DNA from: Gloeobacter morelensis MG652769
Lineage (GTDB): Bacteria; Cyanobacteriota; Cyanobacteriia; Gloeobacterales; Gloeobacteraceae
DNA: 64,000 nucleotides
Assembly: GCF_021018745.1 (NCBI RefSeq)
Contig: NZ_CP063845.1
Span: forward strand, 496,001-560,000
Direction of reading: 5' to 3'
Position 1 is the stretch's first letter; each line of letters opens with the position of its first letter. Made by a program: the position numbers and the translations under genes. Positions 1 through 60,250 of the stretch are shown here, in pieces. The notes below the pieces were generated by a model that searched no databases, was not told the DNA's origin, and was given only the letters and a program-made list of their open reading frames with translations.

Positions 1-1446
1 CGCTACTACGTGCTATTCCAGCGGACAGAACTCAAGGAAGGACGGTGTGCGCTCATCACTTCCTACAGTCCCCACACCAAGGACATCACCAAGGAGGACA
101 CCGGTGCCAATACCGAGACGGATAAGCAGTTCATCTATGAAACGTACAACGAGTTGCTGAAAGGTACCACTGCTGCACCGGGCAAGAGCAGGACAGAAAC
201 TTACGAAGATCAGGCAAAGCAGCTATTCAAAGAAAAACCCGCAACTATGCGGCTGCTCATCGTCGTGGACAAGCTGCTCACCGGCTTCGATGCGCCGAGT
301 TGCACTTATCTTTACATTGATAAGAATATGCAGGATCACGGCCTGTTCCAGGCGATCTGCCGCACCAACCGCATCGATGGCGAGGACAAAGATTTTGGCT
401 ACATCGTGGACTTCAAGAATTTGCTCACCAAGGTCGAGAATGCCATCGCCGTCTACACCTCCGAACTCGACCCCAGCCCGGACGGCACCGACCCGCAAAT
501 TCTTCTGCAGGACCGCCTGGTCAAGAACCGTGAACGTCTGGATGGTGCGCTCGAGCAGCTTGCATTCCTCTGCGAATCGGTCGAGACGCCAGGGGGAGAT
601 AAGCAATACATACAGTACTTCTGCGGCAATCCCGACCTTGAAGACGATCTGCAGGAGCGGGAGCCCCAGCGCCTGGCGCTCTACAAAACCACGGCTACCC
701 TGCTCAGGGCTTACGGCAACATCGCCGACGATCTGGAACGTGCAGGTTACAACGAGGCGGACAGCCAGCGGCTCAGGCGTTCGGTCGATCAGTATACAAA
801 GCTGCGCGATCTGATTCGCCTGGCCAGCGGCGAAAGCATCGATCTCAAAGCCTACGAGGCTGACATGCGCTACCTGATCGACAGCTTCATCCAGGCCGAC
901 GAGCCTAGGAAGATTTCGCCCTTCGACGAGACGCCGCTGCTGGAACTGATCGCCAGGGAGGGCATCGCGAAGGCCATCGAGAGCAGGCTCAAAAACCTCA
1001 AGCACAACCCGGAGGCTGTGGCTGAGACGATCGAGAACAACGTCCGCAGCCTGATCCTCAAAGAAGGCGCAAGCGATCCCGCCTACTACGACAGGATGTC
1101 GGAATTGCTCAAAGAGATCATCGCCGAGCGCAGAGACAGGGCGCTGGAGTACGAGGAGTACCTGAAGCGAATCGCCGAGTTGGTCCAGCGGGTGACGACC
1201 GGCCAGGGTGAGGGCGTGCCGGAGCAGTTGAATACGCCGGGACGGCGGGCTCTCTACAACAACCTCGGAGAGGATGAGGCGCTGGCTCTCAAGATTGACG
1301 AAACTGTCAAAAGGATGCGACCTGACGACTGGCGTGGTAATCGAGTCAAGGAGAACGTTATCAAGTATGCCCTGCACGAAGTCCTACAGGATGAAGCTGA
1401 GGTGGAGCGGATCTTTCTGACGATCAGGCAGCAGCCGGAGTACTGA
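1..1446 (+). CDS. hsdR: Type I restriction enzyme subunit R, C-terminal part (5' end outside window)
   Basis: This is the C-terminal 481 residues of the motor/nuclease subunit of a type I restriction-modification complex, which translocates DNA by ATP hydrolysis and cleaves it. The reading frame is open to the first base, so the gene starts upstream of the window. The visible part holds the second helicase lobe (GFDAPSCTYLYIDK, then QAICRTNR, helicase motif VI) and a long helical C-terminal region that in the family contacts HsdM. The N-terminal nuclease domain and Walker A must lie upstream. Its TGA overlaps the ATG of the next gene by one base (TGATG), so the two are probably translationally coupled. 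Confidence 0.9.
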   Translation, partial: RYYVLFQRTELKEGRCALITSYSPHTKDITKEDTGANTETDKQFIYETYNELLKGTTAAPGKSRTETYEDQAKQLFKEKPATMRLLIVVDKLLTGFDAPSCTYLYIDKNMQDHGLFQAICRTNRIDGEDKDFGYIVDFKNLLTKVENAIAVYTSELDPSPDGTDPQILLQDRLVKNRERLDGALEQLAFLCESVETPGGDKQYIQYFCGNPDLEDDLQEREPQRLALYKTTATLLRAYGNIADDLERAGYNEADSQRLRRSVDQYTKLRDLIRLASGESIDLKAYEADMRYLIDSFIQADEPRKISPFDETPLLELIAREGIAKAIESRLKNLKHNPEAVAETIENNVRSLILKEGASDPAYYDRMSELLKEIIAERRDRALEYEEYLKRIAELVQRVTTGQGEGVPEQLNTPGRRALYNNLGEDEALALKIDETVKRMRPDDWRGNRVKENVIKYALHEVLQDEAEVERIFLTIRQQPEY

Positions 1447-2165
1447 TGGTCACGCAGATCGATTTGGGCACTATCACGGTGGAAGTGGTCAGAAAAAAGA
1501 TCAAGAACATCCACCTGAGTGTCCATCCACCCAGCGGCAAAGTCAGAATTGCAGCGCCGTTGCGACTAGATCTCGATACCATTCGCGTCTTTGTGATCAC
1601 CAGGCTCGAATGGATCAAGCGCCAACAGCAGAAATTGCGCGCTCAGGAGCGCGAGCCTGCCCGCGAGTACATCGAGCGCGAGAGTCATTACGTCTGGGGA
1701 AGGCGCTATCTGCTCCAGGTGATCGAAAAGGATGCGCCGCCGAGAGTCGAACTGCAGCACAACAAACTCGTTCTTCAGGTTCGCCCCGGTGCGGATCGAG
1801 CGAAGAAGCAATCGATCCTCGAAGACTGGTACCGAACACAGTTGAAGCAGGCCGTGCCCCCCCTGATTGCAAAATGGGAGCCCTTGATGGGTGTCACTGT
1901 CGAGCGCTTCTTCGTACAGCGGATGAAGACCCAGTGGGGTAGTTGCAACCCTGTCACCGCAAGCATTCGGTTAAACACCGACCTGGCTAAGAAACCGCCG
2001 GAATTTCTCGAATGTGTGGTCGTCCACGAAATGGTGCACCTCATTGAACCGACCCACAGCAGTCGCTTTCGCGCCCTTATGGACCAGTTCATGCCGAAGT
2101 GGACGTTTTATCGCAGCGAGCTGAACCGGTTGCCCGTTCGCTCAGAGGAATGGAATAACGCCTAG
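1446..2165 (+). CDS. YgjP/SprT-like zinc metallopeptidase family protein (DUF45)
   Basis: A 239-residue protein of the YgjP family, whose characterised members are zinc-dependent hydrolases (UTP pyrophosphatase activity is reported for YgjP). The zinc motif HEMVH lies near residue 197 and is followed by a downstream histidine in PTHSSRF; MKTQWGSCNP before it is the other conserved family block. It starts inside the stop codon of hsdR, and DUF45 genes are often found attached to type I restriction operons, so a role beside restriction is plausible but unproven. No signal peptide is seen, so it is probably cytoplasmic. Confidence 0.85.
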   Translation: MVTQIDLGTITVEVVRKKIKNIHLSVHPPSGKVRIAAPLRLDLDTIRVFVITRLEWIKRQQQKLRAQEREPAREYIERESHYVWGRRYLLQVIEKDAPPRVELQHNKLVLQVRPGADRAKKQSILEDWYRTQLKQAVPPLIAKWEPLMGVTVERFFVQRMKTQWGSCNPVTASIRLNTDLAKKPPEFLECVVVHEMVHLIEPTHSSRFRALMDQFMPKWTFYRSELNRLPVRSEEWNNA

Positions 2166-2315
2166 AGCAGGTTTCAGGTACCAGGTTGAAAACGGATGCC
2201 TACCAAGGTCTCAACCGGCCGGACGTACTCGATACACCTGCAAACCGCTATAGTACAACGAATTTGCTTTGGCGCAAAGACGCCAGTGTAGTAGCTTTTG
2301 GCGATAGTGAATCTG

Positions 2316-2960
2316 CTATCCCAATAACAAACGCAAAATCAAAGAAATGAATAACCCGATCATACTTGGCCAGATCAGCGCAGATAAAAATGAACGTTCC
2401 TTATTTTTGACGGGTTGTGCCTGACCAATCCGGCGGCGGATTATTTCCGCCAGTCTGTAGGCGCTGCGATCAAGTTTCCCTTCGTGTATCAACAGGTCAA
2501 ATCCACTCCAGGAGCGACTCCACTTCATCAATTGTTCAGGGTTTCGAACTCGGAGAAGCCCTACTGTCCGAGGCAGCAGTGTCGGTGCTACTAAAGTCGC
2601 AAGTACAAAATCCAGCTTGATCAGCGGCATGTTCAATTTATCAAGCTCTGCAGAAGGTTCTTTCAACAACAAACCTACACTTGGCCCACCACCAAAGTAA
2701 GTAACATCAACAAACTCGATACTCTCCCAAGAAATGTTTAATTTGTCCATTTGCAATCCGCTTTCATCGATAAGGATTGCACGCGAAAGATCCTTCGACC
2801 CTAAAAGCTGGAAGCAAAAAAATGTCAAACAAACCGCACCCAAAAACCTATCCCATCCTGTTCCGACTATGACTGCTGCCAAGCTGGCAGCGCTCATCAG
2901 CAGCAAGATGACAAGCACAGCCAGCCTGATTGCCAGCGGGGGACGAATAATGATCGACAT
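2316..2960 (-). CDS. Hypothetical membrane protein
   Basis: A 214-residue protein I do not recognise. Two hydrophobic stretches occupy residues about 10-55, and a third lies at the extreme C-terminus (about 192-213). The segment between them looks soluble and mixed alpha/beta, with ILIDESGLQM and ISWESIEFVDV resembling the bacterial PH-like domain found in small membrane proteins. Its ATG lies 3 bases after the stop of the upstream glycine-zipper gene, so the pair is almost certainly one transcript. Base composition is visibly lower in GC than the flanking genes, suggesting transfer. An immunity-type role for its partner is a guess only. Confidence 0.6.
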   Translation of the reverse strand: MSIIIRPPLAIRLAVLVILLLMSAASLAAVIVGTGWDRFLGAVCLTFFCFQLLGSKDLSRAILIDESGLQMDKLNISWESIEFVDVTYFGGGPSVGLLLKEPSAELDKLNMPLIKLDFVLATLVAPTLLPRTVGLLRVRNPEQLMKWSRSWSGFDLLIHEGKLDRSAYRLAEIIRRRIGQAQPVKNKERSFLSALIWPSMIGLFISLILRLLLG

Positions 2961-2963
2961 TTG

Positions 2964-3539
2964 CTACTCTTCATCCTGACTTTGCTTATCACGACACTCG
3001 GCTTGACTCCGCTTGGCCTCGTCAATGCCAGCATTGTAGAGAGTGTTGCCTAAAACACTGCCTGCAATACCCCCAAGGATTGCCCCAGCAGGGCCGCCCA
3101 ATACCGCAGCGCCAGCTTCACCGAATAGTGTCCACCCGACGGCAGTTCCTCCCGCTCCAGTAATTCCTGAAAAACCGACTTTTACGTTATCAGCTAGGCT
3201 TCCGTCATAATCAGTTTTGTCACAGCCAAGCGAGTTGGGCTGTAGACCGGTTGCATAATTGCCCGTCTGTGGATCAAATTCAGCATTTAGATCTACTGTA
3301 TATCCTTGAACAATCCAATTTTCATAGGTCAACTGTCCGACGTTTTCCTCGCTCACTGATTCAATTGAAGTATCGGTGTAACTTTTTATCTCAACTTCTT
3401 GCTGCTGCAGATTGTCATCAAAGTCATCCCATTCTTCTGAATTGGACTCGTGCCAATTATTTTCTATCATTGGCAGCTCGGAGTCTTCTTGGTCATGATT
3501 TACCCAATCAGCTCCAAAGATGCTACTTGGATCTTCCAT
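2964..3539 (-). CDS. Acidic protein with C-terminal glycine-zipper membrane segment
   Basis: A 191-residue protein with no family I can name. Residues 1-85 are strongly acidic and polar. Residues about 120-165 form a glycine/alanine-rich hydrophobic segment with regular GxxxG spacing (GGPAGAILGGIAGSVLGN), the pattern of glycine-zipper membrane-inserting segments. The tail is charged and ends in acidic residues. There is no signal peptide. It is first in a two-gene unit with the membrane protein 3 bases downstream, and both are low in GC. A membrane-active toxin with its partner as immunity protein is one reading; a stress-related glycine-zipper protein is another. Confidence 0.6.
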   Translation of the reverse strand: MEDPSSIFGADWVNHDQEDSELPMIENNWHESNSEEWDDFDDNLQQQEVEIKSYTDTSIESVSEENVGQLTYENWIVQGYTVDLNAEFDPQTGNYATGLQPNSLGCDKTDYDGSLADNVKVGFSGITGAGGTAVGWTLFGEAGAAVLGGPAGAILGGIAGSVLGNTLYNAGIDEAKRSQAECRDKQSQDEE

Positions 3540-3662
3540 AAGCTGCTCGCAAGAAATCGTTTCTTGAATAATACATACTAAAATCTAGGATGTCAATAAG
3601 CTCCATTCCTGCAGCTGCAAGCTTTCAGCTATTGAAGTCTCACCGCCAACGAGTATGGTTTC

Positions 3663-4883
3663 TCAGGTCGTGTACTCGGCGTTGATCTTGACGTAGTCGT
3701 AGCTCAGATCGCAGCCCCAGGCGATGCCGTTTCCGGGTCCGGGGCCGACCTGCAGATGCACTTCGACGGTGTCCGAGCTTTTGAGGTAGTCCGACGCGGC
3801 AGCCCGATCAAAAGCGAGTGGCTGGCCCGCCTCCATCAGGGCAAATGTCCCCAGGCGCACTGCAAGTGCTGCCGGGTCAAATTTGACCCCCGCCCGCCCA
3901 GCCGCCGCTGCGAGGCGGCCCCAGTTGGGATCGTTGCCGAACATCGCTGATTTGACCAGCAAAGAACTGGCCACGGTGAGGGCGATCTTGCGCGCCTGGG
4001 CGTCGTCGTCGGTACCCGTGACCTGCACCTCGATGAGCTTGGTCGCCCCCTCGCCGTCGCGCACGACTTTTTTGGCCAGATCCACACACACAGCACTCAC
4101 CATCTGCTCGAGCAAGGCCGCTTCGGGGCTCGCCGCATCGAGTAGGCGGGGATTTTTCGCTTCGCCGCTCGCCAGGGCCAGCAGCATGTCGTTGGTGCTG
4201 GTATCGCCGTCGACGGTGATCTGGTTGAAGGAGCGGTCGGCGGCTCTGGCCACGATCTGCCGCCACAGGTCGATATCCACCGAGCAGTCGCTGGTGATGA
4301 AAGCCAGCAACGTCGCCATCTGCGGGTGGATCATCCCTGAACCTTTGGCGATGCCGCCCACGTGCACGGTCTTGCCTGCGATAGTCGCGCGCACCGCGCA
4401 GGATTTGGCCACCAGGTCGGTGGTGAGAATCGCTTCGGCCGCCGCATCGGAGCCGGTCTCGGTCGCCGCATCGACTAGAGCCTGGGCGGCGGTGCGAATT
4501 TTTTCGATGGGCAGCGGCACCCCGATCACCCCGGTAGAAGCCACCAGCACCTGATCGGCGCTGAAGCCGAGCGCACGGGCAAAGACCTGGGCGGTCTCGA
4601 TGGCGGCCTCCTCGCCCGCTTTGCCGGTGGCGGCGTTGGCGTTGCCGGAATTGACGACGATGGCGCAGGCTTTGCCCCGCTGCTGCAGCAACTTGCGGTT
4701 ATAGGTCACCGGGGCGGCCTGGACCAGGTTGGTGGTGTACACCCCGGCCGCCGCCGAGGGGTTCTCCGAATAGATGAGCGCCAGATCCGTTTTGCCGCTC
4801 GGTTTGATGCCGCTGGCGATGCCGCCCGCGCGAAAGCCCTTTGCTGCGGTCACCCCGCCGGCCACCCACTCGAAATCCGCCAT
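3663..4883 (-). CDS. argJ: Bifunctional glutamate N-acetyltransferase / amino-acid acetyltransferase ArgJ
   Basis: Transfers the acetyl group from N-acetylornithine to glutamate, closing the cyclic arginine pathway; bifunctional members also make N-acetylglutamate from acetyl-CoA. The 406-residue length fits the family. The self-cleavage site is visible: GSGMIHPQMA followed by TLLAFITSDC, where Thr191 becomes the N-terminal nucleophile of the beta chain. I start at the ATG at 4883 (MADFEWVAGG) because GGGAGG lies just upstream; an in-frame GTG at 4904 would add seven residues and is less likely. The gene is monocistronic or first in a run of minus-strand genes. Confidence 0.95.
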   Translation of the reverse strand: MADFEWVAGGVTAAKGFRAGGIASGIKPSGKTDLALIYSENPSAAAGVYTTNLVQAAPVTYNRKLLQQRGKACAIVVNSGNANAATGKAGEEAAIETAQVFARALGFSADQVLVASTGVIGVPLPIEKIRTAAQALVDAATETGSDAAAEAILTTDLVAKSCAVRATIAGKTVHVGGIAKGSGMIHPQMATLLAFITSDCSVDIDLWRQIVARAADRSFNQITVDGDTSTNDMLLALASGEAKNPRLLDAASPEAALLEQMVSAVCVDLAKKVVRDGEGATKLIEVQVTGTDDDAQARKIALTVASSLLVKSAMFGNDPNWGRLAAAAGRAGVKFDPAALAVRLGTFALMEAGQPLAFDRAAASDYLKSSDTVEVHLQVGPGPGNGIAWGCDLSYDYVKINAEYTT

Positions 4884-14239: not shown

Positions 14240-15310
14240 ATGCCGTACACCTTCCGGCGCCGGTGGCTCGTTCTCGCTCTGTGGTTCGCAGGGCAGGCGC
14301 CAGCCTGGTCCCAGCCGCCCCAGGATTGGCTTGAACGATACCAAAAGGCCCTGCAGGTTCTCGAAGCGCCTTCCGAGCGCCGCTTTGAGCAGCAAATTCA
14401 GACTTTTGGGTGGCAGGAGGGGATCACCACCGGCGAATTTGTCTTTCGTGCCGATGGCGACTGGGAAGCGAATCTAACCGAGGGCGACCAGTTCTACAAG
14501 ATTGCCGACGACCGGCTGAATCTGGTCGCCCAGTCCGACCGCCTGAGGCTCTATAGCGAGTACATCGAGCGCCCCGAGCGGGTAGCTCCCCACGCGATCG
14601 TCGATCTGAGCGCTCCCCCTGACACCTACCGCCTCGAGGCGGCCGAGACGACCCGGCTTGGGACAGACGAAGTGGTGCGAGTGCGCCTTACACCCCTCGC
14701 AGGTGGCCCCCTGCGCGAACTGTGGCTGGACCCCACTACCGCCCTACCGCGGCGGGCAGTGATGTACCTATCGGGCGTCTGGGGCTCGGCCAACTACACC
14801 GTCGATTTTCAACCCGTCGAGCGCTACTGGCTGCCGGAGCGCTCCCGCATGCAGATCAAAATGAATTTCTGGGTACCGGTCGGCTTCACCCGCCGCGCCT
14901 TCGCAGGCCCCATCGACATTGGGGCTACCTACCGCAACTACCGCTTTGGCGACACCGCTGCCCTACCGGCGGTGCCGACTGCCGCTGCCTCGAAACCTGC
15001 CCCTGCCGCCACCGGCACGACCGCAACCCAACCGACGACCGGCCAACCCCTGGGCAAACCGCTCGAGCTGAGTGTCTCCACCCAGAAATCCACCTCGGTG
15101 CTGGCCGAGCGCATCGCCCAGTTCAATCTCAACAAACCGGATCTGAGCAATCCGCTTACCCGCATCAACGTCTTTGTCACCTTGAAGATGGGAAGCCAGC
15201 AATTGCTGTTGTATTTGTTTCGCTTTAACAGCAAACAGTCGCTAGTACCTATCGAGGCAGTCAACTCCCAAAGCGATACGATCAAGCTCTTCGGAACCGG
15301 CAACCCGTAG
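14240..15310 (+). CDS. Hypothetical exported protein, LolA/RseB-like beta-fold
   Basis: A 356-residue protein with a signal peptide (residues 1-24, cleaving near AWS-QP). The body alternates strands in the manner of the LolA/LolB/RseB superfamily (GEFVFRADGDWEANLTEGDQ, then VVRVRLTPLAGGPLRELWLD), which in other proteins shelters lipids or lipoprotein chains. Residues about 235-275 are a Pro/Ala/Thr linker, followed by a C-terminal alpha/beta part of about 80 residues. I recognise no exact family. A periplasmic role is likely. Confidence 0.6.
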   Translation: MPYTFRRRWLVLALWFAGQAPAWSQPPQDWLERYQKALQVLEAPSERRFEQQIQTFGWQEGITTGEFVFRADGDWEANLTEGDQFYKIADDRLNLVAQSDRLRLYSEYIERPERVAPHAIVDLSAPPDTYRLEAAETTRLGTDEVVRVRLTPLAGGPLRELWLDPTTALPRRAVMYLSGVWGSANYTVDFQPVERYWLPERSRMQIKMNFWVPVGFTRRAFAGPIDIGATYRNYRFGDTAALPAVPTAAASKPAPAATGTTATQPTTGQPLGKPLELSVSTQKSTSVLAERIAQFNLNKPDLSNPLTRINVFVTLKMGSQQLLLYLFRFNSKQSLVPIEAVNSQSDTIKLFGTGNP

Positions 15311-15383: not shown

Positions 15384-15568
15384 GCCGTAGTCGACACGTA
15401 TCGTGCAGGCCCTATAGGAGTAAACCCATCCCACCCACCAATTCTCGTTCCCACCGTGCCCCTAAGTCCGGGGGTGTCGGGGCTGGCAGCCCCGGACGCG
15501 GGGAGGTTGGAGAGCGCGAGAGGGGAACCCGAAGGGGGTTCCGCCTCTCGCTCCACAAACTATCGTGC
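15384..15568 (-). repeat. Dispersed structured repeat, copy 1
   Basis: The first of three copies of an element of about 190 bp (others at 29297-29486 and 41487-41675). This copy is in the opposite orientation to the others and lies between the converging 3' ends of the exported-protein gene and the tetR gene. Its first hairpin pairs GCGAGAGG with CCTCTCGC around GGAACCC/GGGTTCC. The second pairs GTCCGGGG with CCCCGGAC around GGGGCTGCCAGCCCC. Short open frames inside it are by-products of the repeat. Confidence 0.85.
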
Positions 15569-15576
15569 TGAACCAC

Positions 15577-16158
15577 CTACAAATCCCCCGAATAAGTGCG
15601 CAAATACCCCGCTACCATCGGACCCAAAATCGCAGCCAAATCCCGCAACGAGACGGCATGTGGAAGGTAGATACGGTGGGTCAACCAGCCGTCCACCACC
15701 GACCACAGCAAATGAAACAACACCGGATCGCGAACACCGATCCCATCAAAAAAAAGCTGTTCGTACTGACGAATTATGCGGTTGAGCGCCGCATCTTGAG
15801 CCAGTTCCCCAGGACTGAAGCCCCGATAATATTCGACGAACAACAACAACTGCTTGCGGCCGTACTCTTCCGTGCGCTCAAAAAAAGCCATCGCCGCTTC
15901 AAGCTTCGCCTCGATCGTCGCCATCCCCGCCAATTCAGCATCAAGGGCAGCGCTGTCCTCCTGGGCCATCTGCTCCATCAACTGCTCAAAAATGGCCTGC
16001 TTGCTCGGGAAATAGTGATAGAGCGTCCCGGTGGACACTTCCAACGCCTCCGCCAACTGGCGCATCGTCGTCTTCGCATAACCATGCTCGGCAAACACAT
16101 CGAAACAGCGCCGAAGCAACGCGCGGCGGTACTGGTCGTGCTCAACAATCTTGGGCAT
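15577..16158 (-). CDS. TetR/AcrR family transcriptional regulator
   Basis: A 193-residue dimeric repressor. Residues about 10-56 form the TetR DNA-binding domain (FAEHGYAKTTMRQLAEALEV, then STGTLYHYFPSKQAIFEQLM); the rest is the helical ligand-binding and dimer domain. It is divergent from the devBCA-like exporter operon across 101 bases that hold a perfect 9-bp-arm palindrome, so it most likely represses that operon and lifts on binding an exported compound. This regulatory link is inferred from layout. Confidence 0.92.
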   Translation of the reverse strand: MPKIVEHDQYRRALLRRCFDVFAEHGYAKTTMRQLAEALEVSTGTLYHYFPSKQAIFEQLMEQMAQEDSAALDAELAGMATIEAKLEAAMAFFERTEEYGRKQLLLFVEYYRGFSPGELAQDAALNRIIRQYEQLFFDGIGVRDPVLFHLLWSVVDGWLTHRIYLPHAVSLRDLAAILGPMVAGYLRTYSGDL

Positions 16159-21689: not shown

Positions 21690-21886
21690 CTAGACAGCAC
21701 AGCAATCCCCTGTAGGTTGAGAGTGAGCGGTAAACCGATTTATCGCTATCTGTCCCCTTCAGACTTTTCAACGCAGGCAGGGCGTTTCACCTATGTCTGA
21801 CAGATCAGGTGCCAGGCTAAAAAACGTTGACCATCAAGGTTTCTCATCGGTCTGCCGCTATCTGGGCAACTTTAAATCGCTCCAAC
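21690..21886. other. Intergenic between tRNA-Cys and dnaG 3' end
   Basis: About 200 bases of noticeably lower GC with no gene, no convincing terminator and no repeat that I can identify. Confidence 0.5.
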
Positions 21887-28376: not shown

Positions 28377-28760
28377 GTGAGTAACTACGACCCCATCGAT
28401 CCCGAACTGCAACTGTTCGATAATCCTGGACAGATGTACGAACAAGGCGATACGAATCACGACGGCGACGGCGACCCGGTCGAGGGAGCGATGTACGCCG
28501 ATAGCGACTTGTTTCTGGCTGACGCTTCCTACCAGACCGGCGACGGCACCCACCTCACCGACTCCGAAGAACAGTACTGCCGGGAGCAGACCGGCGGTGA
28601 ACCTGAGAGTCTGGTCGAAACGGTGGGCGATCTCATCTATGACTTGCGCGATGGCTTGTTCATGACCGACCAGCTCTCCGACACCCATGTCGAACACTAC
28701 CAGGACGCAGCCAGGGACGACGCCTACGACTACTGCATCGAGCAGGAATCGAACGACTGA
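28377..28760 (+). CDS. Small acidic hypothetical protein
   Basis: A 127-residue, strongly acidic protein starting at GTG 54 bases after the preceding gene. It contains a DTNHDGDGDP stretch that could bind calcium, though it lacks a full EF-hand, and a C-terminal helix with paired acidic residues. The family is unknown. High Asp/Glu content and lack of hydrophobic segments suggest a soluble, partly disordered protein. Confidence 0.5.
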   Translation: MSNYDPIDPELQLFDNPGQMYEQGDTNHDGDGDPVEGAMYADSDLFLADASYQTGDGTHLTDSEEQYCREQTGGEPESLVETVGDLIYDLRDGLFMTDQLSDTHVEHYQDAARDDAYDYCIEQESND

Positions 28761-29193: not shown

Positions 29194-29296
29194 AAGGTCA
29201 TTCACCTCGCAGCAATGACGCTGGCGGGGTTGTCGGGTTGCACTGACAACGGCGGCTGTGCAATAGTTTTTTCCCTGACACCTGGCGGTTGGTTTT

Positions 29297-29486
29297 GCAC
29301 GCGGGTCTGTGGGTGCGAGAGGCGGCACCCCCTTCGGGTGCCCCTCTCGCGCTCTCCCCCTCCCCGCGTCGAGGGGCTGCCAGCCCCCCGACACCCCCCG
29401 GACTTAGGGGCATGATTGGGAACGGGGCTTGGCGGGCGGGATGGGCTTATTCATCCAGTGCGTGCACGACGCGTGTCGACTGCGGC
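29297..29486 (+). repeat. Dispersed structured repeat, copy 2
   Basis: The second copy of the 190-bp element, here on the plus strand between the converging 3' ends of the DUF7660 and Uma2 genes. The first hairpin pairs GCGAGAGG/CCTCTCGC with inner arms GGCACCC/GGGTGCC. The inner arms differ from copy 1 by a compensated base pair. The element ends in CGTGTCGACTGCGGC. Confidence 0.88.
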
Positions 29487-29534: not shown

Positions 29535-30101
29535 TTAGGCGAACAGCGGGCCGACCGGGCAGGCGAAGTTTGCAAGCAGCGGACTGGTGAGGGTATCATC
29601 CGCCAGTAAGGTGATTGTCAGTTTCAGCACCGCCCCCTCCCGACGATACACCTCGACGCACCCCACCCGGCCATCGACCAGCCAGTATTCCTGTATCCCG
29701 CGCAGTGAATAGAGCTTGAGTTTTAGTTCCCGGTCGCGCCGCTGGTTTTCGGCTCCCGGCGAGAGCACTTCGACCACCAGTTCGGGGGCGCCTGCTAGAT
29801 GTCCGGCTGCATCGAGCAGGGCTTTGAGGCGATGGGTGCTCGCCCAGACGACATCCGGAATGACGTTGTCCGCCTCGCTAAAGAGAATTCCCGGTGCGAC
29901 CGCCGCTTGGCCGAGGCCGGTGCGGTTGGACCAGGCGTCCAGGGCCGCTCCGATGCGCAGGCAGATCTGCTGGTGTTTCCAGTGGGGCGCTCGCGTCACC
30001 AGCAACTCCCCGTCGATAATTTCGTAGCGGTTGCCGTTGTCCGGCAGCAATTCCAGGTCCGCCGCCGTCCAGCGCACGCGCTCGTCCGCTGCTTGGTGCA
30101 T
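29535..30101 (-). CDS. Uma2 family endonuclease-fold protein (DUF820)
   Basis: A 188-residue protein of the Uma2 family, a restriction-endonuclease-like fold greatly expanded in cyanobacteria. The family order is visible: DLELLPDNGNRYEIIDGELL, then DNVIPDVVWAST, then PELVVEVLSPGAENQRRDRE with the catalytic-type Glu/Asp positions, then YSLRGIQEYWLVDGRVGCVE. Its natural substrate is unknown; relatives are often linked to mobile elements. Confidence 0.88.
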   Translation of the reverse strand: MHQAADERVRWTAADLELLPDNGNRYEIIDGELLVTRAPHWKHQQICLRIGAALDAWSNRTGLGQAAVAPGILFSEADNVIPDVVWASTHRLKALLDAAGHLAGAPELVVEVLSPGAENQRRDRELKLKLYSLRGIQEYWLVDGRVGCVEVYRREGAVLKLTITLLADDTLTSPLLANFACPVGPLFA

Positions 30102-41370: not shown

Positions 41371-41486
41371 GGCCCCCATCAAGTTTTGTGTCGATCCTAT
41401 CGCCTGTGCCTTCGGTGCGGCGTTGGGCGGGTTGACTAAAGACTTTGATGCAACGCTTTTTATCCTCACATCTGGCAGTTGGTGTG

Positions 41487-41675
41487 GCACGACAGTCTGT
41501 GGGGCGAGAGGCGGCACCCCCTTCGGGTGCCCCTCTCGCGCTCTCCCCCTCCCCGCGTCGAGGGGCTGCCAGCCCCCCGACACCCCCCGGACCGAGCGGC
41601 ATGGTCGAGAACGAGGTTTTGTGGGTGGGATGGGCTTATGCTTCCAGGGCCTGCACGACGCGTGTCGACTGCGGC
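41487..41675 (+). repeat. Dispersed structured repeat, copy 3
   Basis: The third copy of the 190-bp element, very similar to copy 2 through both hairpins and the terminal TGCACGACGCGTGTCGACTG. Unlike the other two it lies between divergent 5' ends (DUF2358 and the CruP-like gene), so it would be inside one or both 5' leaders. Confidence 0.88.
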
Positions 41676-55686: not shown

Positions 55687-57074
55687 TTAGTACGACAGTG
55701 ATAGATCGGCTGAAAGCCTCTCGCTGAGCCGTTTCTGGTGGTAGTACTTTGCGACGGTGCGGTGCCGTCGTCGCCACTCCAGCCACTCCAGTCTTTCTCG
55801 CAAAGGGCGTGGTTCTGGCCACAGGAAACTCCCAAGCAATCGCCGGAACTCCCGCACGCTTACAGGTAATAGAACCCACACCGCTTCTTGAATGTATACA
55901 AGCTCCCGCTGCTGCCGGGCAGCATTTTTTTTACATCGATCGCTTGGGCACGCAGGACCGTCATCACCGCGTGGGCCAGCAGCGACAGGGTGACGTGCCG
56001 GTGCCAACCGTGCCAGGTGCGCACCTCGTACTGATCCAGGCCCGCTTCGCCCTTGGCGTCTTGGAAACCTTGTTCGATGGCCCACCTCCGACCGATCACC
56101 CCCACCAGTTGCTCCGGGGTCGTGCCGACCGGTGCGAGGGCGAGGAAGTAGGCCACTTTGTCCGGCTCGCCCAAGTTGCGGCGGCCGATCACCCAGCGCC
56201 TCAGGTGCGGCTTTTCCGGGTGTCCCAAAGCAAGGGCGGTCCAGCGGTAGAAACGGGGCCCTTTGGAGCCCTCCCCGCAACTGAGGATCCTCCATGTTTC
56301 GGCTCCTTGCTGCGTGACCAGGGTTTCCACCCGATGCGTCTTCTGTCCGATCCAGACGGCATGGTCCTTCTGAACGGCAAGGACGTAGTTCAGGCCCAGT
56401 TCCTCGACGCAATGGCGCAAGCGGTGGTCGGTGCCGTAGAGGGCATCGGCCGCCACCCATCGGGCAGGCGCCCCGGCCTGGACGGCCCGTTTGAGCATTC
56501 TTCGGGCAAGTTGGATCTTGGTGGCAAATTCTGCTCCCTCCGGCACCCAGGCCTCGCGGCAGCGTTGCGGATTGTCCGTCCAGCTTTTCGGCAAGTAGAG
56601 TGCGCGGTCGATAAAGGCGTGCCCCTTCGCAGAGGCATAAGCCAGGAACACGCCCACCTGGCAGTTTTCCGTGCGTCCGGCGGTGCCTGAGTACTGCCGC
56701 TGCACGCCGACAGATTTGGTGCCCTTCTTCAAAAAGCCGGTCTCATCGACGATGAGCACGCCATCCGGGTCTCCCAAGTGCTCGACTACATAGCGCCGCA
56801 GGTCATTCCTCAGTCCGTCCGCTTCCCAGCAGGCGCGGTTGAGGAAGTGCTGGAAGTTGGAAGGGTCGGTGTCACCGGCGAACTCGGCCAACTGCCAGGA
56901 GTTCTTGCGCTCGATGGGGGCCATCAAGGCTTTGAGGTAGAGCAGGCAACGCTCTTTGGCTTCCAGACGGCGGAAACGCCAGCAGATGCGGCCGGCCAGA
57001 TAGTCGAAGTGTTGTTGCTAGGCGGAGGCGGTATCTACGGCTGCCTGACTCGACGAAGAGTACGATGCGTTCAT
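55687..57074 (-). pseudogene. IS701-family transposase with in-frame stop and frame change
   Basis: From ATG 57074 the frame reads MNASYSSSSQAAVDTASA, a TAG stop (57018-57020), then resumes QQHFDYLAGRICWRFRRLEA. The DDE_5 core follows: LIVDETGFLKKGTKSVGVQR, QYSGTAGRTENCQVGVFLAY, AADALYG and RRWAIEQGFQDAKGEAGLDQ. At a run of eight A (plus-strand T at 55925-55932) the C-terminal 80 residues continue only in the -1 frame (NAARQQRELVYIQEAVWVLL onward) to the stop at 55687. The stop could be a single CAG-to-TAG change; the A8 run could be a slippage mutation or a recoding site. Confidence 0.82.
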
Positions 57075-57137
57075 GGTGGTGAAAGGCTTGCGGCATCAGT
57101 ATTCTACCCGTCCCTACATCTACCGCTGTCGTACTAA
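55687..57137. mobile_element. IS701-family insertion sequence, decayed (about 1.45 kb)
   Basis: Inverted ends TTAGTACGACAG (55687) and CTGTCGTACTAA (ending 57137) bracket a transposase gene of the IS701/DDE_5 group, with imperfect pairing for several further bases. No exact direct duplication flanks it: the outer four bases are TTAG and CTAA. It lies 19 bases from the right duplication of the neighbouring IS4-family copy. The transposase carries a stop codon and a frame change, so the copy is probably dead. Confidence 0.82.
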
Positions 57138-57228
57138 TTTTGCGCGCAGCTTCAAACGCTGGACCGGGATCCCACCCAGAGAGTTTCGCGATGGCCAGAG
57201 AGAGTGCCAAAACTTCGGTCAGAAATGA
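57136..57228 (+). pseudogene. AraC-family regulator, 3' remnant
   Basis: Thirty codons immediately right of the IS701-family element encode NFARSFKRWTGIPPREFR and a short tail before TGA. This is the last helix-turn-helix of an AraC regulator and closely matches the end of the intact AraC protein at 61912-62976 (NFARSFKRWAGTSPSAFR). The rest of the gene is lost, presumably through the IS insertions. Confidence 0.7.
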
Positions 57229-57337
57229 ATACTTTTTGGCCGCGGGCGAGCTTTCGCGCCAGTATGCAATGTGCATATTATTAATTATGCAATGTCTACC
57301 AACTGAAACCGTTTGATTGAGATAGGAAAAGATTGAC

Positions 57338-58078
57338 ATGGGATTCAAGTACATTGATGCTCTAGCAACACCTGAGAATTTAGAGAAGTTGATGAAGCTC
57401 ACAGATATGGTTGCTGGAATCACGCGAGAAACATCAAATGTTTTTGACATTGAAGATGCATTGCGTGATAGCCCACTCATGCAGAATTGCTTGACAGCAG
57501 TTCGAGAAGATTCTGCCTCAGCTAAAGCCCTAGAAGAGCGTTATATGGGAGAAGACTATGACATTGAGAAAATGCTCAAAATGCCCCCTCATTCATTGGG
57601 TTGGACTTACGCTAAGGTACTTACCGCATTAGGGTACGATCCGAATTTTTATCGTATACGCGAAATCGAGTCAGATGTTGACTACATCACTCATCGAGTT
57701 CGCAAGACTCACGATCTGCACCACATCCTGACAGGTTTTAGCTTTGATGATTACGGCGAATTAGGCATCATTTCTGTCACAATTGGTCAAATTCGCTATC
57801 CAGCATTTGTTCTCATGGCTCTACTAGCATCTTTACTGAGTTATGTCACTGGTGCTAAAAAAGCAGGGATTAACCATCAGCTTGAGTATAACTTTGACAT
57901 AGCTTCTGCTGGAATTCAGATGGCTAGACAAGCAAAGTCCTTGTTTCCTGTTAAGTGGGAAGAAAATCTAGATCGCCCCTTAGACGAGTTACGCAGCGAG
58001 TTTAACATTCAGCCAGTTACTACTGGTTTATGGAGCTGGTACACTCGCCCAGTTTTACAAGAGGCTATTAGCGCTTAA
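57338..58078 (+). CDS. Coq4-like protein
   Basis: A 246-residue protein of the COQ4 family, which in ubiquinone makers acts in oxidative decarboxylation at ring carbon C1. The metal motif HDxxH-x11-E is complete (H125, D126, H129, E141) in VRKTHDLHHILTGFSFDDYG E. Cyanobacteria make plastoquinone rather than ubiquinone, so the substrate here is unknown. Base composition is far lower in GC than the chromosome around it, and IS remnants lie on both sides, pointing to recent gain from another cyanobacterium or bacterium. Confidence 0.78.
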   Translation: MGFKYIDALATPENLEKLMKLTDMVAGITRETSNVFDIEDALRDSPLMQNCLTAVREDSASAKALEERYMGEDYDIEKMLKMPPHSLGWTYAKVLTALGYDPNFYRIREIESDVDYITHRVRKTHDLHHILTGFSFDDYGELGIISVTIGQIRYPAFVLMALLASLLSYVTGAKKAGINHQLEYNFDIASAGIQMARQAKSLFPVKWEENLDRPLDELRSEFNIQPVTTGLWSWYTRPVLQEAISA

Positions 58079-58298
58079 CAGACATTCGGTAGTGCGCTAG
58101 ACCTATGGATACTTTCTCTGCAACGCACGCTCTCCAGGTTAGCCAGCAGTACCAAACACAGGTCTAGAACATTCCCGAACCGTTGATAAAGAAGTCAGCA
58201 CCTTAACTAGGAACTTTGAATCTAAAAAATAAGATGCTTTTCCCAGTACTTCACAATAAGTATTTTGTTAAACAGAGGAGCTATTACCGAGAGAAATC
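58079..58298. other. Low-GC intergenic region
   Basis: About 220 bases between the Coq4-like and lipoprotein genes. I see no gene; it probably holds the promoter of the lipoprotein gene. Confidence 0.4.
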
Positions 58299-59240
58299 AT
58301 GTTGAGTATTTTACAAACATCAGCTCCAATACTGCGAATGATCATCGTAGTATTGCTACTCAATTCAATTGTGTTGATTGGCTGTCAACGCATAATTCCC
58401 ACAGCACCTCTAACCAGTACAGAACAGAGGGACACTACTGCTAATTCGGACTTGCCGCGAGAGTCAGATGGGCGTTCTGCTAAGTTACTCTCTGCTTTTT
58501 TCGGTCTCGATAATGGATTGCCCCCACGGTCTGAGTTTTTCTGTCGAGGTGCAGAGGGTGCTGATGGGATGCCCGTTATCTTTTCCCACGAACTTGATGT
58601 TGACACGCTCCAGCCTGGTGACTTTCGCGTTACAACGGCTAGCGGCAATGTGGGTAAATTAGTCTGTGTTACCATGCTTCCTGCAATTGACCCCGGTGAA
58701 TTGCGAACTGTACTGCTGGTTGGGGACTTTGGTTCAACTCAAAGTGACCCACCTGTCACCGTTGAGATTGTTGGCAACCTCCATTCAATTGACAACACAG
58801 TCAACTTTAAAGGAGCCATGATTAAAGTCACACCATTAAATTCAGGTCCGACGCTGATTCTTGCTGAGACGTTACCCAAGACGACATGGCGCTTGGGACG
58901 TGAATCCAATGGCAGAGTCGGATCTAGCACAGGATGCCCCACCGAGGGTGTCCAACAAATTGTGCGCGTTGTCTGGGCGGGTGGTGTGACTACCGCCAAC
59001 AATAAGGAACCAGGAGACTTGGAGCGTAATGCGTATCGCGTTACTGTGAAGAAAGCCAATGGTTCAACCACTGATGTTACTCCGTTTGCACTGGGAGACC
59101 TGGCAGATAACGACAATAACCACGAGCTTTGTCTAGACACAACTGATGTACCGGTTTCCGTGTCATTTCCCGCAGGCTATCTCACTGATCCAAACAACGA
59201 CTTAAATCCAGCCACAAGCATTAAAGTCATCCAGCGTTGA
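58299..59240 (+). CDS. Hypothetical lipoprotein
   Basis: A 313-residue protein with a lipoprotein signal peptide: hydrophobic MIIVVLLLNSIVL followed by lipobox LIGC, placing the lipidated Cys at about residue 29. The mature part after a Ser/Thr-rich linker is beta-rich, with IFSHELDVDTLQPGDFRVTT resembling an Ig-like or calcium-binding surface domain, and a C-terminal DLADNDNNHELCLD. No family is recognised. It is low in GC like the Coq4-like gene and probably arrived with it. Confidence 0.6.
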   Translation: MLSILQTSAPILRMIIVVLLLNSIVLIGCQRIIPTAPLTSTEQRDTTANSDLPRESDGRSAKLLSAFFGLDNGLPPRSEFFCRGAEGADGMPVIFSHELDVDTLQPGDFRVTTASGNVGKLVCVTMLPAIDPGELRTVLLVGDFGSTQSDPPVTVEIVGNLHSIDNTVNFKGAMIKVTPLNSGPTLILAETLPKTTWRLGRESNGRVGSSTGCPTEGVQQIVRVVWAGGVTTANNKEPGDLERNAYRVTVKKANGSTTDVTPFALGDLADNDNNHELCLDTTDVPVSVSFPAGYLTDPNNDLNPATSIKVIQR

Positions 59241-59246
59241 CCAAAC

Positions 59247-59402
59247 TTAAGCCCTGGCAGCATGCCTGATTATCTGGCGGGAGCTGGCATCACTTTCTGG
59301 ATAGGCTGTAAGTCGGACGCGCGCAGGCAGCGTACCATCTTGAGAGAGGGAAAGCAGTTGCGCATCTTCTTCAGGGGAGAGATGAATCTGATGGTGAGGC
59401 AT
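59247..59402 (-). pseudogene. IS630-family transposase, N-terminal remnant
   Basis: A 51-codon frame starting MPHHQIHLSPEEDAQLLSLS and continuing QDGTLPARVRLTA before a frame of no similarity and a stop. This opening matches the start of IS630-type transposases (LTxEE...L..LS...LP.R.R.RA). The winged-helix and DDE parts are missing. Confidence 0.55.
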
Positions 59403-59519
59403 TGCTGGGACCAGAGCTACATCCTCATCATATGCACTTTTTGCTGGTTCCCCTACTTAGCAGTCGGTGGAGTGCCGCAGGTGTCGAATCTGGGGTGAGC
59501 GAACGGAAGCTGCTGCTAG

Positions 59520-59769
59520 AGACGACATAGTATTGCTACTGTCAAAATCTGCCTGTGGTCCTGTCTGCCTGCATACAGCACCAGGACGAGTGGTGCTGTG
59601 GGTGAGCTTCTGTAGGGCTGTTTCGCAGTTGTGCTCGGCCCTGACTGCAGCAATTCTCTTGCCATACTTTTATGGTTGACTGCCTTGCCTCTTGCTCAGC
59701 CTGAGCGTTGAATTTCTCCTCGGACTCTGCTTTGCATCGGAAGCATACCAAGGCTGTAGCGGAGGGACC
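59520..59769 (-). pseudogene. Possible IS1634-like transposase remnant
   Basis: On the minus strand, fragments in two frames (CKAESEEKFNAQAEQEARQS, then AVRAEHNCETALQKL) recall the coiled region and Cys-Glu block of IS1634-type transposases. Frames are broken and similarity is weak, so this is tentative. The rest of 59241-59769 holds no gene. Confidence 0.3.
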
Positions 59770-59890
59770 ATGAAACGCCAGTGGACCGAGCAAGAACTGA
59801 TTGAACAGTGGACGCTTCTGCCCGATGAGTTGACCCTGATGGCCAGTCTGGCTGACTACAACCGTCTCGGCTTTGCCATCCTGCTGAAAT
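59770..59890 (+). pseudogene. Tn3-family transposase (DUF4158), N-terminal remnant
   Basis: Forty codons beginning MKRQWTEQELIEQWTLLPDE and ending RLGFAILLK, the start of Tn3-type TnpA proteins. The frame is cut exactly by the left end of the IS3-family element at 59891. The remaining 900 or so residues are not found after the IS, so a deletion accompanied or followed insertion. Confidence 0.75.
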
Positions 59891-59947
59891 TGAGCTTGCT
59901 CGGGTTATGTGGACACTCCCTGTAGACTCAAAAGCGAGGAGGAGTCC

Positions 59948-60250
59948 ATGACAACGAAACCACAACCGCAATACACACCCGAGCAACGCGCCGAAGCCGT
60001 CCGCATTAGCGAGCAATCCGGCAAGTCCACCTACCAGGTTGCCCGCGACCTCGGTATCTCCCAGACCACCCTCAGCCGCTGGCGGCGCCAAGCCCTCGCC
60101 GAGCGAAAGCACGACAACGACCCCGACGTTCCCCTGAGTACCGACGAGCGTCGGGAGTTAGCCCGCCTGCGCCGAGAAAACAAACAACTGCAACTGGAGC
60201 GCGATTTGCTAAAAAAAGCGGCGGCCTTCTTTGCCAAAGACCACTCGTAG
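59948..60250 (+). CDS. IS3-family transposase OrfA
   Basis: A 100-residue DNA-binding protein: YTPEQRAEAVRISEQSGKST, then YQVARDLGISQTTLSRWRRQ (helix-turn-helix), and a leucine-zipper ending LRRENKQLQLERDLLKKAAA FF. A run of seven A (60211-60217) reads A-AAA-AAA in the codon frame, the classic slippery site for -1 frameshifting. The -1 frame is open from there through the orfB start, giving the OrfAB fusion that is the active transposase. Confidence 0.9.
   Translation: MTTKPQPQYTPEQRAEAVRISEQSGKSTYQVARDLGISQTTLSRWRRQALAERKHDNDPDVPLSTDERRELARLRRENKQLQLERDLLKKAAAFFAKDHS

Follow-up and report, generated by a model that had tools for sequence, protein, structure and literature searches.

What kind of sequence recurs three times in the window, and is its fold held by selection? 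The window is the 64,000-nucleotide stretch of DNA analysed here. It spans positions 496001-560000 on the main contig of a 5.10 Mb genome (G000) of Gloeobacter, an early-branching cyanobacterium. In one hairpin the copies differ by a paired change that alters both arms, and an earlier note took this covariation as a sign that the fold itself is selected. The element looks like a constrained gene-end signal that has been spread and kept uniform as a repeat.

A dispersed repeat between Gloeobacter genes

We compared the window genome with G001 (Gloeobacter violaceus PCC 7421, 4,659,019 bp), G002 ('Aphanocapsa lilacina' HA4352-LM1, a draft metagenome-assembled genome and the third species carrying the element) and G003 (G. 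kilaueensis JS1, 4,724,791 bp; sizes from PMC3806779). Three copies of about 190 bp had been claimed; they are present and align over ~195 bp, with limits that we adjusted by means of a profile made with 58 copies. The three sites had been placed correctly, but the reverse-complement orientation of copy 1 had been missed. The similarity of the window copies is far above chance, since a genome-wide search with copy 2 recovered other copies at E-values down to 1e-76. The features of the window are:

15384-15575, minus strand: copy 1, an element of ~195 bp (profile match, alignment)
15516-15551, minus strand: hairpin 1 of copy 1, A-T state, arms 15524-15530 and 15536-15542
15476-15497, minus strand: hairpin 2 of copy 1, with TGCCA enclosed by a C-G closing pair (element strand)
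14240-15310 (plus) and 15577-16158 (minus): convergent predicted genes around copy 1
29289-29486, plus strand: copy 2 (profile match), ortholog in G001 at 4288083
29315-29350, plus strand: hairpin 1 of copy 2, C-G state, A-T in the G001 ortholog
29368-29392, plus strand: hairpin 2 of copy 2
29465-29475, plus strand: small 3'-end hairpin of copy 2, CACG-ACG-CGTG
29213-29282 (limits approximate), plus strand: degenerate 'module A' directly 5' of copy 2 (weak match, 19 bits)
28377-28760 (plus) and 29535-30101 (minus): convergent predicted genes around copy 2
41479-41675, plus strand: copy 3, orthologs at 2643918 in G001 and C33:41744 in G002
41504-41539, plus strand: hairpin 1 of copy 3, C-G state, A-T in both orthologs
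41557-41581, plus strand: hairpin 2 of copy 3
21810-21881 and 2182-2249, minus strand: stand-alone copies of module A

Copies were counted with a covariance model of the 88-nt hairpin domain, whose E-values are rough. It gave 52 matches in the window genome, 46 in G. violaceus and 34 in HA4352-LM1, a few of them weak, and we put the number of copies in the window genome at about 47-52. The model found no match in G. kilaueensis and, in a class-wide search of 291 genomes, none in the 288 other cyanobacterial genomes (G. kilaueensis included); G004 gave a single weak match at E = 0.008. No DNA homologs outside the three species were found among 59 genomes, a core-pattern scan of a genome collection matched the HA4352-LM1 assembly alone, and the exact 3'-end motif had no match in viral contigs.

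For anatomy and context we extracted 104 copies from the three genomes, 98 of which are 188-203 bp long. The element is thus not confined to passive fragments. It opens with a variable start of ~25 bp, followed by hairpin 1, with about 14 pairs, one bulge and the apex CTTCGG, which in element orientation reads GCGAGAGG-(C)-GGAACCC-CCTTC-GGGTTCC-CCTCTCGC. An unpaired and nearly invariant linker, GCTCTCC-n-CCTCCCC, leads to hairpin 2, which encloses the loop TGCCA/TGCCG; then come a variable middle of ~50 bp and a conserved end, where a small hairpin CACG-(3-5 nt)-CGTG, unbroken in 94 of the 104 copies, precedes TCGACTGCGGC. The ends of the core, TTGGTTTTGCACG and GACTGCGGC, show no inverted-repeat relation. 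A few copies are cut near core positions 151-165 and lack the conserved 3' end (L132, L152, and contigs C60 and C69 of G002), and L152 also holds one decayed copy. In one of the 104 copies hairpin 1 reads GGAAACCGAAGGGGGTTCC and its apex seems inverted, with the loop as the reverse complement of the common form; exchange between the palindrome arms, or a template switch, would be expected to give this result.

Genes were predicted with a home-made codon-usage model on segments centred on the elements. All 104 copies are intergenic. Among the 99 copies with both neighbours, 64 lie in convergent, 29 in tandem and six in divergent gaps (orthologs included). The same DNA has 98 gaps of 30 bp or more that lack the element, and these divide into 11, 53 and 34. 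A count free of orthologs, in the window genome alone, places 26 of 39 copies in convergent gaps versus seven of 32 window gaps. In tandem gaps the element runs 19 times in the gene sense and ten times against it, a weak sense preference. This location at gene ends may reflect mere tolerance. A protein-coding reading was discarded, as length variants break the frame and no copy overlaps a predicted gene.

Covariation, gene conversion and constraint

The double change that the earlier note described in hairpin 1 is there as described, with GGAACCC/GGGTTCC in copy 1 and GGCACCC/GGGTGCC in copies 2 and 3. Parsing the hairpin alleles by regular expressions, with a few aberrant copies skipped, we found the variable pair to be A-T, C-G or, in four copies, C-T. 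The C-G state occurs in 13 copies of the window genome (with three more C-T) and in none of the 60 copies scored in the two sister species. Several of the 13 loci predate the species split. Five loci whose flanks are conserved, two of them being window copies 2 and 3, have C-G in the window genome and A-T in the ortholog. A state that is private to one genome and sits at loci with A-T orthologs does not represent independent compensations; it is best explained as one double change spread by gene conversion. Counting such copies inflates the evidence for a selected structure, and covariation among repeat copies deserves caution in general, as it can come from a single conversion-spread change.

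Hairpin 2 is more informative. RNAalifold returned a poor structure on the full alignment because length variants of hairpin 2 were misaligned, and pairing was scored instead by explicit parsing and on a gap-light alignment. The pair closing the hairpin 2 loop is C-G in 58 copies, G-C in 44 and mispaired in none, with the variation seen in all three species, and both of its bases have switched together in 14 of 39 ortholog comparisons. When the named structure is imposed on 44 distinct copies, 96% of cells are paired and covariation scores 0.055; sliding the partners lowers this score to 0-0.002, and shuffling to 0.012. The signal is carried by just two of 23 pairs, 15 being invariant, and one-sided changes (wobble pairs) are too few for choosing a strand. 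Collecting the genomic copies, as had been proposed, did yield further covariation. The step from covariation to a selected fold holds up in part, through this second pair, which the slid and shuffled controls fail to reproduce, and through the constraint described below; the hairpin 1 change on which it had been based is a lineage-specific state spread among copies and by itself says little.

Almost all other pairs of variable sites in the 90-bp stretch show four allele combinations, so copies within a genome recombine. The members of base pairs stay coupled despite this shuffling. They lie 7-15 bases apart, and closeness is a partial explanation of the coupling, but other sites that are equally close do recombine. 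Alternatively, palindrome-templated correction together with gene conversion could be a source of coupled changes. The linker and the loop are conserved though unpaired, an outcome that such correction would not yield by itself.

Both flanks are conserved in 42 ortholog pairs, and divergence between species was measured over 22 independent loci. The domain from hairpin 1 to hairpin 2 diverges by 3.7% and the last 26 bp of the element by 3.0%, whereas adjacent intergenic DNA diverges by 10.8% and neighbouring genes by 7.2%, which argues that the hairpin domain is constrained. Its divergence is below that of intergenic DNA overall (p = 7e-24) and does so in 19 of 22 loci taken singly. Deletions affect 0.2% of the conserved parts (hairpin domain, linker and 3' end) versus 9.7% of flanking intergenic DNA. 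The variable middle, at 14.8%, diverges more than the intergenic flank does (p = 1e-4 pooled, p = 0.05 per locus), which would be expected from an import of paralogous variants by conversion, and the first 25 bp likewise evolve faster than flanking DNA. Core identity is 91.0% between orthologous and ~88% between non-orthologous copies.

Mobility and known repeat families

Copy 3 sits in DNA that is continuous with G. violaceus and HA4352-LM1, and the corresponding gap in G. kilaueensis has no match to it. The left neighbour of copy 1 is present in G. violaceus; the element was not found at that site (L147). A copy at 4267010 is missing from G. violaceus, and with it ~490 bp whose first bases are a TAG stop codon. 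Only one empty site is clean (L144); it has just a short TAG-type repeat around a ~490-bp composite. Two further copies (1384963 and 4492448) face different DNA at the corresponding G. violaceus sites. In one convergent gap (L162, G000:C1:216000-218500, and L160, G001:C1:2001000-2004500) the element runs in one direction in G000 and in the other in G001, the two copies being only 83% identical, which implies two insertions or an inversion.

A second repeat accompanies some of these copies. 'Module A', which measures ~86 bp where it stands by itself (TA-GAGCGGTTTTC...CACCTGCTC-TA), lies 1-17 bp 5' of about a fifth of the copies, always in the same orientation, leaving ~80% without a recognisable module A upstream; its 3' half often follows the core. 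This arrangement suggests that the element was amplified within larger composites. With its TA ends and short inverted repeats (TA-GAGCGGTTTTCAG...CTGACACCTGCTC-TA), module A looks like a TA-inserting MITE.

The element could be a passive MITE- or REP-like repeat, with hairpins that served past mobilisation, sites that are merely tolerated, paired changes that recombination corrects or spreads and no function now. We consider this possible, if rather doubtful. In its favour, some gaps differ between species in having or lacking the element, or in its orientation; the element forms composites with TA-flanked module A, its copies are gene conversion mosaics, and function is not required autonomously. 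However, orthologs show three times less change in the hairpin domain, linker and 3' end than in flanking intergenic DNA, whereas a dead repeat should decay; moreover, the core lacks terminal inverted repeats and Y1 transposases do not track the element. A RAYT mobiliser was rejected, as PF01797 counts four members in the window genome, none in G. violaceus or HA4352-LM1 (both with the element) and two in G. kilaueensis (without it). No autonomous partner of the element was found.

Comparison with known families places the element beside several of them. REP/BIME sequences are also GC-rich palindromes scattered through intergenic DNA, where they follow stop codons and often occupy convergent gaps (PMC1525189), and in enterobacteria and pseudomonads they are proposed stabilisers of mRNA 3' ends. 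The Gloeobacter element shares the extragenic, gene-3' and convergent location. However, REPs are 20-40 bp long and often present in hundreds of copies (PMC3733652), whereas the element measures ~200 bp, folds into three hairpins and has ~50 copies, with no RAYT transposase following its distribution. ERIC, NEMIS, Ype and Efa are intergenic repeats of 100-200 bp in tens of copies, Ype and Efa lying near CDS 3' ends (PMC1590033); the likeness noted here is one of size, copy number and location, and the Gloeobacter core differs in having no terminal inverted repeats and in the lineage-wide gene conversion and between-species constraint measured here. Intrinsic terminators are likewise GC-rich hairpins shortly 3' of stop codons, but the element has no U-tract. 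TA-flanked MITEs of the IS630/Tc1-mariner type resemble the neighbouring module A in its TA ends and short inverted repeats. The Gloeobacter core itself, unlike these, has neither such ends nor, at the clean empty site, a target-site duplication beyond the short TAG-type repeat, and shares with MITEs the presence/absence at orthologous sites.

A possible role at mRNA 3' ends

Our best reading is that the element is a new REP/ERIC-like gene-end repeat whose hairpins would act as mRNA 3'-end structures. At a probability of roughly 0.5, we favour a non-autonomous repeat under purifying selection and gene conversion, the hairpins of which define or protect the 3' ends of flanking mRNAs. A lineage-specific, non-coding repeat of ~200 bp would have settled just after stop codons, mainly in convergent gaps and largely before the split of the three Gloeobacter species. 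Its two strong stem-loops, fixed linker and 3' end have since been held by purifying selection, while copies inside one genome trade sequence through gene conversion. The element would be transcribed within the 3' ends of flanking mRNAs, and its hairpins could define or protect those ends, for either strand, where Rho is lacking.

We infer hairpins in 3' untranslated RNA from the action of REP hairpins, which slow exonucleases (reviewed in PMC12306157), and from the proposals for Ype and Efa, stem-loop repeats being clustered at CDS 3' ends (PMC1590033). As the element serves about 2% of genes, it is not a general 3'-end signal. Cyanobacteria lack Rho, Synechococcus elongatus being a Rho-less relative, and 3'-end mapping in that species found canonical intrinsic terminator features at 22% of transcription units; most of its defined RNA ends without U-tracts also lack strong structure (PMC13289151). 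Since S. elongatus mostly does without structured 3' ends, the 3'-end role stays tentative for Gloeobacter. Rho was not recognisable in Gloeobacter, the best matches reaching ~29 bits versus a cut-off of 509. A terminator scan of copy 2 returned 0 sites, and the core has no U-tract after its hairpins.

Alternatively, the element might be a dedicated, bidirectional, U-tract-less signal that forms 3' ends or stops transcription for convergent genes in a Rho-less host, scattered as a repeat and homogenised by conversion. We regard this as unlikely. If true, the element would be one of the termination routes, still undescribed, that have been inferred for the cyanobacterial phylum (PMC13289151).

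The hairpins might also act as DNA, being extruded between convergent genes to bind protein or relieve supercoiling, as proposed for BIMEs. Positive supercoiling gathers in convergent gaps (discussed for REPs, PMC1525189), either orientation of the element is accepted, and its folding advantage is alike on both strands (copy 2, z = -4.6 on the plus and -3.9 on the minus strand). The CTTCGG apex and the conserved unpaired linker are, however, also compatible with RNA, and we hold a DNA-level role to be quite improbable. Least of all do we expect a stand-alone small RNA that is encoded in many copies and has a promoter to itself. A stable multi-hairpin fold with conserved loops and linker would suit one, but no Rfam 15 family reached its gathering threshold, no promoter-like site lies just 5' of copy 2 (a marginal consensus match is ~100 bp away), the first 25 bp and the middle change faster than their surroundings, and the element sits after stop codons in either orientation. 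Rfam families retrieved at E up to 10 were dismissed as chance matches, mainly to miRNA models.

As a structured and constrained gene-end repeat in the earliest-branching cyanobacteria, the element offers about 50 natural test sites per genome, and the sister species supply presence/absence differences and coordinated pair changes for comparison. The element as a replacement for canonical terminators was rejected, as these are rare at gene ends with or without it (8/118 and 1/63, p = 0.17). In a simple scan of the fetched Gloeobacter segments, hairpin-plus-T-run terminators occur at nine of 181 gene ends, a rate of about 5% that fits reports of non-canonical cyanobacterial 3' ends. As to the window itself, positions 1-4000 and 56001-60000 have a G+C content of 0.52-0.53 versus 0.62-0.65 elsewhere, and these two stretches are possibly acquired DNA.
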